Shown here piece after piece: positions 35,263 through 40,290 of a stretch of 64,000 nucleotides of DNA (positions are counted from its first letter, which is position 1; the number at the start of each line of letters is the position of its first letter). Both the position numbers and the translations under genes were made by a program. Location of the stretch: NCBI GenBank assembly GCA_024276305.1, contig JAJRXK010000020.1, positions 1 through 64,000 of the forward strand. Direction: 5' to 3'. This DNA comes from Candidatus Krumholzibacteriota bacterium. Its GTDB lineage: Bacteria; Krumholzibacteriota; Krumholzibacteriia; JAJRXK01. Under the pieces are notes generated by a model, which was given only the letters and a program-made list of their open reading frames with translations, was not told where the DNA came from and did no database searches.

Positions 35263-36174
35263 CTAGCACTCTTGAGCCGAATTGTCGGCGGGGGAAACAT
35301 GGTGGCTCGCGCGGTAGGAGCTGCGAACGAAGGGAGCCGCCTCCACGTGGAGAAATCCCATCTGGAGAGCTCGGTCCCGGATCTCCTCGAATTCCTCGGG
35401 AGAGACGTAGCGCTCCACCGGAAGCTGAGCCGGCGAGGGCTGGAGGTATTGTCCCACGGTCAGCACATCCACTCCCGCCTCGCGCAGATCCTCGAAAAGA
35501 GCCTCGAGTTCCTCTCGAGTCTCGCCCAATCCGAGCATGCAACCGCTCTTGGTGCGTCGGATCCGATCGGGGCGGGCCTCGCCCGCCCACCGCAGGACCT
35601 GGAGACTGCGCTGGTAGTCGCTGCCGTGGCGGGCGCGGCGGTAGAGACGGGGAACCATCTCGATGTTGTGGTTGAGCACTTCGGGCCCGGCATCCAGGAG
35701 AGTCTCGAGAGCCGAACGCCGGCCTCCGAAATCGGGGATCAGAACCTCGATCGCACAATCGGGATTGAGCTGACGCACCCGGGCGATGGTCGCTGCGAAA
35801 TGCGCAGCACCGCCGTCGGAGAGGTCGTCGCGATTCACGCTGGTGATGACCGCGTGGGAGAGTCCAAGACGCTGAACCGCTTCGGCCACGTGTTGAGGCT
35901 CGTGAGGATCGAGACCGCCCGGGATCCCTTTCCCCACGCTGCAGAATCCACAGTGGCGAGTGCAGACCTCGCCCATGAGCATGAAGGTCGCGGTCCGATC
36001 GGCCCAGCACTCGAAGAGGTTGGGGCATCGCGCCGCTTCGCAGACCGTGGTCAGCCGCAACTCCCGCATCATCTCGGTCACCGACGCCACTCCCTGCGCG
36101 TCGGTGAGCCGAACCTTGAGCCAGTCCGGCCGCTCGGCGGAGAGTTCGAGGTGGGTCTTGCGCTTCTTGTTCAT
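35263..36174 (-). CDS. lipA: lipoyl synthase
   Basis: A protein of 303 residues, the normal LipA length. The auxiliary cluster ligands are C45, C50, C56 (CEAARCPNLFEC), the radical-SAM triad is C71, C75, C78 (CTRHCGFC) and the C-terminal serine ligand is in VRSSYRASH. It inserts two sulfurs into octanoyl groups on lipoyl domains such as the E2 encoded two genes upstream. The ATG overlaps the lipB stop (ATGA). Confidence 0.97.
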   Translation of the reverse strand: MNKKRKTHLELSAERPDWLKVRLTDAQGVASVTEMMRELRLTTVCEAARCPNLFECWADRTATFMLMGEVCTRHCGFCSVGKGIPGGLDPHEPQHVAEAVQRLGLSHAVITSVNRDDLSDGGAAHFAATIARVRQLNPDCAIEVLIPDFGGRRSALETLLDAGPEVLNHNIEMVPRLYRRARHGSDYQRSLQVLRWAGEARPDRIRRTKSGCMLGLGETREELEALFEDLREAGVDVLTVGQYLQPSPAQLPVERYVSPEEFEEIRDRALQMGFLHVEAAPFVRSSYRASHHVSPADNSAQEC

Positions 36175-36863
36175 TCGAAGACCTCGGCCTTCGCGGGGCG
36201 CGGCCTCTCTTCGACGATCCGACGATTCATGACTCGACCGAAATGCTTCACCAATCTGCGGCGCACCAGAGCCGCCTGCGGCGCACGACCCAAGACCTCT
36301 TTCATCGACGTGACTCCGTGGTCCCGGATCCCACAGGGCACGATGGTCTCGAACCAATCCAGATCGCAGTCGATGTTCAGAGCGAATCCGTGGCTGCTCA
36401 CCCACTTCGAGAGCCGTACTCCGATGGCCGCGATCTTGCGGGAATCCACCCACACCCCGGTGTGAGGAGGACGGCGCTGCGCTTCGATGGAGAAATCTTC
36501 GAGGGTGTCGATGAGAACTTCCTCGAGGCGACGGAGATAGCGATGAGCATCGCGTTCTTCCTCTTCGAGAGCCAGGATGGGATAGCCCACCAGCTGTCCC
36601 GGACCGTGGTAGGTCACGTCCCCTCCTCGGCCGACCTCGTGCACGGTGGCGCCCCGGCGACGCAGCTCCTCGAGAGGGAGAAGGACATTCTCCCGGTGGG
36701 AATTGCGGCCCAGAGTGAGGACATGAGGGTGCTCGAGGAGAAGAAGTCGATCCCGTTCTCCCCCGGATTGGCACCGCTCCACCCATTCCTGCTGGAGTGC
36801 GAGTCCGGCCGCATATTCCACGCGGCCGAGCCATTCGCTGATGCAGATGGGGTCGATCGTCAA
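36171..36863 (-). CDS. lipB: lipoyl(octanoyl) transferase
   Basis: A protein of about 230 residues. The LipB signature GRGGDVTYHGPGQLVGYPIL is present. The catalytic Lys is in VDSRKIAAIGVRLS and the catalytic Cys in ETIVPCGIRDHGVTS. It transfers octanoate from ACP to lipoyl domains in the step before LipA. No ATG is available before the conserved WLGRVEYA opening. TTG at 36863, directly after GAGGAG, is the most likely start although the spacing is unusually short. It follows E2 by 11 bp, and the frame continues open far upstream inside the E2 gene, where it is spurious. Confidence 0.93.
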   Translation of the reverse strand: MTIDPICISEWLGRVEYAAGLALQQEWVERCQSGGERDRLLLLEHPHVLTLGRNSHRENVLLPLEELRRRGATVHEVGRGGDVTYHGPGQLVGYPILALEEEERDAHRYLRRLEEVLIDTLEDFSIEAQRRPPHTGVWVDSRKIAAIGVRLSKWVSSHGFALNIDCDLDWFETIVPCGIRDHGVTSMKEVLGRAPQAALVRRRLVKHFGRVMNRRIVEERPRPAKAEVFE

Positions 36864-36874
36864 CTCCTCATGTT

Positions 36875-38182
36875 CTAGATCGCGGTCTCGTCGAAGTTCT
36901 CGAGGGTGGCCTTGATGCGTCCCAGGAATTGCTCGGCCACCGCGCCATCGATCAGCCGATGGTCGTAGCCCAGAGAGACGTACATCCTCGGGCGCACTGC
37001 GATCATGTCGTCGACCACGACCACCCTCTTCTCCACCTTCCCCATGCCGAGAATCGCCGAATTGGGCTGGTTGATGACCGGAGTCCCCATGAGGCTGCCC
37101 AGGCTTCCCGGATTGGTGATGGTGAAGGTCGAGCCCTGGATCTCGTCGCTGCTGAGCTGCTTGTTGCGAGCCCGGGTGGCGAGGTCGGTGATGGACTTCG
37201 CCAATCCCACCATGGAAAGGTCTTGAGCCCGCGGAATCACCGGAACGATGAGCCCCCAATCGAGGGCCACTGCCATTCCCAGATTCACATCTCCGTGGTA
37301 GAGAATGTCCGAGCCCGAAAGCGAGGCGTTGATGATCGGCATGGCCTGCAGCGCATCGACGACCGCCTTGGCCATGAACACCGTGTAGGTGAGCTTGGCG
37401 CCTCCGCTGGACTCGAGGAAGCGCTCCTTGTGCGCCCGCCGGATCCGGTCCACCTGTGACATGTCGATCTCGTAGAAGGTGTGCACATGGGGTGCGGTGT
37501 GCTTCGATTCGACCATCCGTTCGGCAATGATCTGCCGCATCCGGCTCATGGGTTCGAGATGGTCCCCACTGCCCGGAGCAGGGGCGGGCGCCGCCGCTCG
37601 CGAGGGTGCCACGACGGCGGGCGCCGAAGCAGAAGCCGAGGCAGAAGAAACCGAGGGAGCACCGCCCCCCGAGACATGGGCCAGGATGTCCTCCTTGGTC
37701 ACTCGCCCCTGCACTCCACTTCCCTGGACCCGGGTGAGATCGACCCCGTGCTCCGCCGCAATCTTCCTCACCAGCGGCGAACTCTTGGTCTGGAGTCGTT
37801 CCTCCCTCGATGCACTTCCTCCGGAAGGAGGCGAAGAGACCGCGGGAGCGGGGGCTGGCGCCACCGGAGCGGGGGCGGAAGCGGGTGCCGGGGGCGTGTC
37901 CGGCTGGGCCTCGGGCGGGGTCTCGGACGCCACCTCCTCCCCGCCTTCGGCGGCGATGCGGGCAACCACGGTCTGTACCTCCACCGTCTCTCCCTCTCCC
38001 ACCACGATCTCGGTGAGCACTCCCGACAGCGGCGAGGGGATCTCCGCATCGACCTTGTCCGTGGAGATTTCGTAGAGCGGCTCGTCGACCTCCACCGTGT
38101 CGCCGACCTGCTTGAGCCACTTGGTGATCGTGCCTTCGGCGATGCTCTCACCCATTTGTGGCATCAATACGTCGCTGGCCAT
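36875..38182 (-). CDS. 2-oxoacid dehydrogenase E2 (dihydrolipoyl acyltransferase)
   Basis: A protein of 435 residues. The N-terminal lipoyl domain has the target Lys at about 43 (EISTDKVDAEIPS). An Ala/Pro-rich linker follows, then a peripheral subunit-binding domain (about 133-170, SSPLVRKIAAEHGVDLTRVQ), a second Ala/Pro linker and the catalytic core ending with YDHRLIDGA (His and Asp of the active site). A strong AGGAGG lies 6 bp before the ATG. The core cannot be assigned to succinyl, branched-chain or acetyl transfer by eye. The E1 gene is not in this window. It ends with a TAG stop. Confidence 0.93.
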   Translation of the reverse strand: MASDVLMPQMGESIAEGTITKWLKQVGDTVEVDEPLYEISTDKVDAEIPSPLSGVLTEIVVGEGETVEVQTVVARIAAEGGEEVASETPPEAQPDTPPAPASAPAPVAPAPAPAVSSPPSGGSASREERLQTKSSPLVRKIAAEHGVDLTRVQGSGVQGRVTKEDILAHVSGGGAPSVSSASASASAPAVVAPSRAAAPAPAPGSGDHLEPMSRMRQIIAERMVESKHTAPHVHTFYEIDMSQVDRIRRAHKERFLESSGGAKLTYTVFMAKAVVDALQAMPIINASLSGSDILYHGDVNLGMAVALDWGLIVPVIPRAQDLSMVGLAKSITDLATRARNKQLSSDEIQGSTFTITNPGSLGSLMGTPVINQPNSAILGMGKVEKRVVVVDDMIAVRPRMYVSLGYDHRLIDGAVAEQFLGRIKATLENFDETAI

Positions 38183-38205
38183 GTCTTCCTCCTGAATCCG
38201 ATTCG

Positions 38206-39606
38206 CTAGAAAGAAATGGAGTGCCCCGCCGCCGCGTGGCTCGCCTCCAACATTCCTTCGCCGAGGGTGGGATGGGCGTGCACGATCCGAGAGAGTTCCT
38301 CGTTCGTGCACTCGAGCTGCATCAGCGCGACGGCTTCGGCAATCAGATCGGTCGCATGCGGACCGATGATGTGGACGCCGAGGATCTCGTCGTACTTGCG
38401 GTCGCGGATGATCTTCAAGAAGCCCGACGCCTGATTCTGAATCCGGGCCTTCCCCGACGCGGCCCAGGGGAACTTGCCGACTTCGATCTCGTAGCCAGCC
38501 TCCTTGGCCTGGGCCTCGGTCAACCCCACGCTCGCCACTTCGGGACGGCAGTAGGTCGCTCCGGGAACCAACCCGTAGTTCACTGGCCGAGTCTCCACTC
38601 CCGCGATCGTCTCGGCCGCAACCATGGCCTCGGCCGTCGCGCAGTGAGCGAGCATGGGCGTGGGAACGATGTCTCCGATGGCATAGATCCCCTCTACCGC
38701 GGTGCGCATGAACTCGTCGACCACCACGAACGATCGGTCGAGCTGAATGCCCACATCTTCGAGACCACAGTCGGAGGTCCGCGGACTCCTGCCCACCGCC
38801 ACGAGGAGCATGTCCGTCTCGAGCTCGGAGGCCTGGCCCTTCTTCTCGAGGGTCAACTTGACGCCCTTCGCACCCACCTACGCGGAGAGGAGCTTCGTGG
38901 CCACGTGGATGTCGATGCCGTCCTTCTCGAGCGCCTTGGCCAACTCGGCCCCGACATCGAGGTCTTCGAGGGGAAGCAGCTGCGGAAGCATCTCGATCAG
39001 GGTGGTCTCGCTCCCGAAGCGGGCGAAGACCGAGGCGAATTCGACCCCTACCGCCCCTCCTCCGAGCACCGCGAAACGAGAGGGCACCGCCTGGAGCTCC
39101 AGAACCTGATCGCTGTTGACGATCCTCTTCCCGTCGATGGGAAAGGCGGGAATCTGGGTCGGCACCGAACCCATGGCCAGGATGATCCCCTTCCGGGCCA
39201 CGAGCTGTCGCTTCTGTCCTTCGTGGTCGACCTCGACCGTCCGAGGCCCCACCAATCGTGCGCGGCCCGGCTCGCGGGTGATCTTGTTCTTCTTGAACAG
39301 GAATTCGACCCCCTTCGCATTCTTGGTGACGACCTTGTTCTTGTTCTTCATGACCGCCGCGAAGTCGAGCTCCACCGATCCCACCACCACCCCCGCGTCG
39401 GCGGCATGCTGAAGCTCGCTCAGGAGGTCAGCCGAATGGAGCATCGCCTTGGTGGGGATGCAGCCCCTCAGAAGGCAGGTCCCCCCGAGGCGCTGGTCCA
39501 TTTCGACCACCCCGGTCTCCAGACCGAGCTGAGCCGCCCGAATGGCTGCGGTATAGCCTCCTGGACCCGCCCCTATCACCAAGACGTCGTATTGCTGTTG
39601 GGACAC
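38206..39606 (-). pseudogene. lpdA: dihydrolipoyl dehydrogenase interrupted by one in-frame TAG
   Basis: The gene encodes a normal lipoamide dehydrogenase if codon 243 (TAG at 38878-38880) is read through: 466 residues in one unbroken frame. The first part (38878-39606) has the FAD motif VLVIGAGPGGYTAAI, the redox disulfide C44/C49 (GGTCLLRGCIP) and the NAD motif VLGGGAVGVEFASVF. The second part (38206-38877) has YAIGDIVPTPMLAH and the interface motif HAHPTLGE with the catalytic His. The TAG falls in a variable loop (KLLSA-stop-VGAKG) where family members vary widely. GTG at 39606 with AAAGG upstream is the preferred start; TTG at 39615 is possible. It may be a base-call error, a true nonsense mutation, or readthrough. 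Confidence 0.85.
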
Positions 39607-39649
39607 AGAACTCAACCTTTCGCCGGGAAATCCGCCTCTCGGAGATCAC

Positions 39650-39677
39650 AGCTTAGCACTTGTCCGGGAGTTGCCAA
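39650..39677 (-). promoter_or_regulatory. candidate promoter for lpd-E2-lipB-lipA
   Basis: On the minus strand TTGGCA (39672-39677) and TAAGCT (39650-39655) are separated by 16 bp. Transcription would start about 37 nt before the GTG start of the lipoamide dehydrogenase gene. Confidence 0.5.
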
Positions 39678-39695
39678 GAGAGATGGGTTGGTAGC

Positions 39696-39725
39696 ATTGA
39701 TGTTGACCATCAATATAAGTATGAT
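39696..39725 (+). promoter_or_regulatory. promoter with palindromic operator before pqqD-like gene
   Basis: TTGATG (39697-39702) and TATGAT (39720-39725) are 17 bp apart, a good sigma-70 pair. A perfect inverted repeat, ATTGATG and CATCAAT around TTGAC (39696-39714), covers the -35 and much of the spacer, as a repressor operator would. The patch is AT-rich against GC-rich surroundings. The leader to the PqqD-like gene would be about 165 nt. The rest of 39726-39895 shows nothing else I can support. Confidence 0.55.
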
Positions 39726-39895
39726 ATTCCGCAGAAATCGCCCCTCCGGATGCGGGTTCCCCGCCGCGGAATCGGTCGAATACGATAGTCCACGAGGATC
39801 ACATTCCCATGGCTTGACCGTAAGTGGAGTGCCCTCTACGTTGAGCCTGCGTCGTTCGTGTGATCTCTTCCCCGCCCCCAAGCATGGAGCCCAGG

Positions 39896-40189
39896 ATGAA
39901 TTCCACCCCATGCCCGCTCCGATCTGCGACCGTCAAGTGGCGAGTCCTCGACGAAGAGGGGGTCCTCGTCGATCTGGACCGATCCACCTACTTCACCCTG
40001 AACTCCGTCGGTCTCTTCATTTGGGATCGTTGCAATGGCGAGTTCAGCCCCGAAGAGATCGTCGAAGGCATCGTGGAGGAATTCGAGATCGATGCGGAAA
40101 CTGCCCGGCAGGATCTGGAGACCTTCCTGGACGCGCTCTCCGACCAGGGCCTCATCGATTACATCGTCGAACCCGCAGCCGCGAGCTGA
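39896..40189 (+). CDS. PqqD-like (RRE-fold) protein
   Basis: A protein of 97 residues with the PqqD pattern: VKWRVLDEEGVLVDLDRSTY, then FTLNSVGLFIWDRCNGEFSP and helices EEIVEGIVEEFEIDAETARQ and DLETFLDALSDQGLIDYI. PqqD-fold domains (RRE) bind leader peptides of ribosomally made, modified peptides and hand them to modifying enzymes. The ATG at 39896 has GGAG 8 bp upstream; earlier in-frame starts add unconserved sequence. The gene is not near pqq genes. A candidate peptide gene follows after 101 bp, and no radical-SAM or other maturase is adjacent. Confidence 0.85.
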   Translation: MNSTPCPLRSATVKWRVLDEEGVLVDLDRSTYFTLNSVGLFIWDRCNGEFSPEEIVEGIVEEFEIDAETARQDLETFLDALSDQGLIDYIVEPAAAS

Positions 40190-40290
40190 GTTCGGCCGCC
40201 TTCGGGTGGCGGAACCACCCCCCCCTGTGCTATTCTCTTCTGGTCCCCTGATGTTGATTGAAAGTGGTCCCCTCCACTGGAGCCCCGCGC

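Follow-up and report, generated by a model that had tools for sequence, protein, structure and literature searches.

Dihydrolipoyl dehydrogenase (Lpd, E3; TIGR01350; PDB 1dxl, 6uzi, 3urh) is recognized by a full-length profile match and by its redox-disulfide and His-Glu motifs. The gene described here shares these properties and lies beside those for E2, LipB and LipA, but unlike the Lpd orthologues listed in relatives it contains one in-frame TAG. Pyrrolysine proteins likewise have a UAG inside the gene; Lpd is not known to be one of them. In the trypanosomatid Blastocrithidia, a genetic code that reads UAR as glutamate (PMC12153298) likewise results in UAA and UAG codons inside genes, often at Glu positions, while both keep their meaning as stops. 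Among the rows examined of the table in PMC8629427, a study that screened more than 250,000 prokaryote genomes, the known bacterial reassignments are UGA changes, and the word “glutamate” does not occur there; for some yeasts, its authors attribute spurious inferences to erroneous or pseudogene stops. Sequencing artefacts of the oxidative G>T type have also been described (PMC12390751). Like the lesions reported below, which are read from the consensus sequence, artefacts of oxidation or of draft assembly consist of nonsense substitutions with a Glu-rich spectrum, scattered over unrelated genes of one assembly.

The window, a stretch of 64,000 nucleotides from a Candidatus Krumholzibacteriota bacterium, carries on its minus strand a single lipoamide dehydrogenase frame running from 39615 or 39606 to 38206, with exactly one internal stop in sequence and translation. 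This is a TAG at 38880-38878, codon 243 from GTG 39606 and codon 246 from TTG 39615. When read through, the protein matches positions 1-460 of 461 of TIGR01350 with 550 bits (curated cut-off 408.8). The N-terminal part alone (codons 1-242 from GTG 39606, 38881-39606) matches positions 1-234 with 276 bits, and the C-terminal part alone (38206-38877) matches positions 243-460 with 264 bits. That two halves of one gene adjoin in frame, separated by a single codon, is far beyond chance. The original prediction of an Lpd split by a single TAG, with well-conserved halves in the same frame, therefore holds: identity to the orthologue of a same-genus genome (69% for the protein) is 161/244 before the stop and 163/223 after it. 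The translation contains both GGTCLLRGC and HAHPTLGEG, which we take to be the redox disulfide and the C-terminal His-Glu motif of Lpd, and the gene has its own TAG terminator at 38208-38206, where relatives also end in the alignment.

All 23 aligned relatives have a sense codon in place of the internal stop, with eight different residues among them (E, K, R, D, A, T, G, V), in agreement with the variable loop that had been proposed for this site. No Lpd orthologue among the matches listed from 58 genomes, our own included, has an internal stop, and in relatives the listed orthologues that match over the full length each form a single open frame. No structured RNA from Rfam was matched in the window, including the vicinity of the lpd stop. 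A 697-codon open frame lies antisense to lpd on the plus strand (38158-40251); long antisense frames cover lpd in relatives too, and this one is a by-product of GC-rich coding, not a gene.

Following lpd on the same strand are E2, a SucB-like dihydrolipoyllysine-residue succinyltransferase (36875-38182; TIGR01347, 379.3 bits, cut-off 378.65), the lipoyl(octanoyl) transferase LipB (36174-36860; TIGR00214, 164.6 bits, cut-off 83.55) and the lipoyl synthase LipA (35263-36168, start approximate; TIGR00510, 360.1 bits, cut-off 310.25), the latter being the C-terminal 300 codons of the open frame 36834-35263. These profile matches confirm the gene order that lpd had been said to head. Lpd should be needed in this organism, because its genome has E1-type genes and E2, together with a GcvH-like protein (recognized by eye) that adjoins the stop at C53:42620. 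A second lpd, which the original prediction proposed to look for, was absent from the whole draft genome, where the next-best match to TIGR01350 scored 64 bits.

The in-frame stop is not peculiar to lpd. The draft assembly, by the look of it a metagenome bin, comprises 3.55 Mb in 119 contigs of up to 188 kb (97.9% complete, 0.35% contamination), and we scanned 1.327 Mb of it (37%) for stops flanked on either side by coding signal. The first candidate list came from a gene caller prone to antisense frames, and its lesions were re-examined with Pfam and homologues; an improved gene model listed 59 sites, most of which are ordinary gene junctions. With support defined as a profile match or a homologue that spans the stop, and with calls partly curated by eye, 16 in-frame stops in conserved genes remained (8 TAG, 6 TAA, 2 TGA). 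The 15 besides lpd are distributed over contigs C99, C23, C2, C54, C34, C42, C103 and C93. TAG interrupts genes that we presume, from motifs and domains, to encode Der (C99:121964), HemB (C23:47279), FlgC (C99:34973), FliH (C99:38342), RlmN (C2:54401), a membrane protein (C34:60787) and an SGNH hydrolase (C54:3015, with a profile match below its cut-off). TAA is found, with names assigned on the same basis, in CrcB (C42:4911), an MFS transporter (C23:55079), a Big_5 protein (C54:39864), an AMP-binding enzyme (C93:9633) and two proteins without a name (C103:42075 and C42:56308), and TGA in a DAO oxidoreductase (C34:31493) and a Mutator-type transposase (C42:54396), which may be a true pseudogene. 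Three sites without a spanning homologue or domain were dropped from the count (C93:49493, C34:59606, C42:183502), and a TGA in SelD (C42:67517) was excluded as natural. Error would be expected to leave lesions of this kind across many unrelated genes of one assembly, as is seen here.

Related assemblies, in contrast, lack such lesions, as an error confined to our own assembly would predict. The controls were a genome of the same genus (G001, 434 kb) and one of the same family (G003, 420 kb), together ~0.855 Mb, scored unblinded. The identical scan gave 16 and 13 candidate sites, respectively, all of which are junctions or antisense frames by eye except one redoxin TGA; ten of these 29 were run on Pfam, where only the redoxin match spans its stop, and the other 19 were judged by eye. 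Thus no in-frame lesion was found in the ~0.855 Mb of G001 and G003, bar this one probable selenocysteine TGA, against 9 or 10 expected (Poisson probability ~6e-5, based on 15 lesions with the transposase left out). The redoxin site itself (G003:C27:47622) has its TGA in a GYG-U-VFCR setting and is probably a selenoprotein in that relative. By tblastn, 239 kb of aligned coding sequence from our assembly contained 3 nonsense sites inside homologous genes, plus three further rows that look like gene ends, whereas no convincing nonsense site appeared in G001 (175 kb aligned), G003 (104 kb) or a further relative, G002 (22 kb). The same searches gave no frameshift pair in our assembly (239 kb) or in G001 and one doubtful pair in G003; frameshift or indel error in our own assembly was rejected on the absence of such pairs.

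Lesion sites with homologues in G001, G002 or G003 have sense codons there. At 12 of them the G001 homologues have 7 Glu, 2 Asp and one each of Gln, Arg and Ala; the SGNH site, where the G001 match is weak (31% identity) and has Ser, was left out of this count and would make it 7 Glu of 13, and G001 offers no homologue for the membrane-protein and MFS sites. Under the codon usage of the genome, the expected share of Glu codons behind new stops is 25% for uniform substitution and 53% for G>T/C>A changes alone. The observed 7 of 12 is about twice the uniform expectation (p 0.014 under uniform substitution), in a small sample, and the excess appears in line with G-to-T/C-to-A-type changes. The density of nonsense substitutions in the assembly, roughly one per 80 kb, implies an overall error rate of ~3-4 per 10 kb, which is a lower bound if lesions were missed.

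We propose that the TAG in lpd is most probably a residual base-substitution error of the draft assembly and that the gene is intact in the living organism. The original prediction had listed base-call error among its possible causes, and the many conserved genes with such stops here, against none in the two related assemblies scanned, favour base-call or assembly error. Several genes that should be indispensable are broken at once in one assembly, which points to residual substitution errors, and we infer that the lesions share one technical cause. Under this hypothesis every 10 kb of the assembly would contain a few substitution errors, and those visible as stops would be skewed to Glu codons, as expected of G-to-T/C-to-A errors. 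Error is also the economical answer because no decoder was found, RF1 is intact and TAG terminates normally, and because the same-genus genome is free of such stops and TAG, TAA and TGA are mixed among the lesions. However, the assembly looks good by completeness, contamination and contig size, and it counts against error that contigs of this kind would be expected to have a rate lower than one near 4e-4.

The stops could instead be real nonsense mutations, lpd being a young pseudogene in the sampled strain whose lipoamide-dependent complexes are disabled or bypassed, and the other stops the product of a mutator or decaying lineage. That the TAG is the sole lesion in an otherwise conserved frame would suit a recent mutation, and a G>T skew would suit weak 8-oxoguanine repair. 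An Fpg/Nei-like glycosylase gene (G000:C54:4877-5584) is an open frame whose C-terminal end lacks the usual zinc-finger cysteines and which scores below the fpg cut-off, but MutY is intact. Moreover, the genome has E1-type genes, E2 and GcvH but a single lpd, and it is unlikely that one living cell would lack working Der, HemB and its sole Lpd together, Der being presumably indispensable; the stops are therefore either absent from the organism or read through. We consider the nonsense-mutation hypothesis improbable. It is scarcely credible that the gene is split, with the first half translated from its own start and the second from the GTG that directly follows the TAG, and that the two assemble into active enzyme. 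Such an arrangement would use that GTG and two conserved halves, but the GTG is preceded by a pyrimidine-rich stretch with no ribosome-binding site, the stop lies inside the nucleotide-binding region, the full-length orthologues listed in relatives are single open frames, and the halves would separate the disulfide from the His-Glu motif, whose roles we take as those given above. Of the causes originally proposed, then, separately translated halves find no support here, nor does suppressor readthrough.

That UAG, and with it UAA, is decoded at some internal sites, probably as Glu, so that Lpd is made at full length, seems to us highly unlikely. The further claim that some UAA and UAG codons are read as glutamate and serve as terminators elsewhere, with Lpd, Der, HemB, RlmN, FlgC and others all full length, we regard as very improbable, although trypanosomatids offer a precedent. 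In favour of readthrough, 14 of the 16 lesions are TAG or TAA, indispensable genes are among those hit, and, besides the seven Glu sites in G001, the RlmN site is Glu in 4 of 4 homologues. However, at some lesion sites relatives have Gln, Arg, Ala, Leu or Met, and the congener has no such stops. Anticodons for reading UAG or UAA (CTA, TTA) are absent from the 40 tRNAs found genome-wide, and ARAGORN at a lowered threshold over 1.33 Mb returned tRNA-Sec as the sole stop-anticodon tRNA; a UAG/UAA-reading tRNA might lie in an assembly gap. PylS gave a best match of 21 bits in our genome against a cut-off of 178. Pyrrolysine decoding of the lpd TAG was rejected for want of PylS and a CUA tRNA, and this sets the genome apart from pyrrolysine systems.

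RF1, moreover, is intact (502 bits), and UAG is still a terminator: 42 TAG-ended genes could be compared with a homologue from relatives, and in 33 of them the two ends lie no more than 15 residues apart; lpd itself is TAG-terminated. This upholds the earlier view that wholesale reassignment is unlikely. Seven genes in this screen end early. Two of these are Lpd and C103:42075; C3:46170 and C42:114393 were inspected and neither looks like a lesion; the remaining ones are two in C75 that match one G001 protein and one in C54. Unlike the Blastocrithidia code, the present case thus combines scattered stops without systematic use, no cognate tRNA found and an intact RF1.

With respect to UGA, the SelD gene carries a TGA in frame where the active site is encoded (G000:C42:67517) and a tRNA-Sec gene is present at C75:27427-27521; the organism probably makes selenoproteins. 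The 40 tRNAs do not include tRNA-Ile(GAT) or tRNA-Ala(TGC). These are often found in rRNA operons, and the assembly may lack the rRNA region.

If the substitution-error hypothesis is right, an assembly of high completeness and low contamination can still carry around a dozen false stops per megabase, and annotation, the counting of pseudogenes and the search for recoding would all be misled by such stops. Errors of this kind come to light quickly when stops within conserved genes are counted and the assembly of a relative serves as the control. If instead the error hypothesis is wrong, readthrough of UAR as glutamate in a bacterium would be a major discovery, and the genes bearing these lesions are the places to test it.
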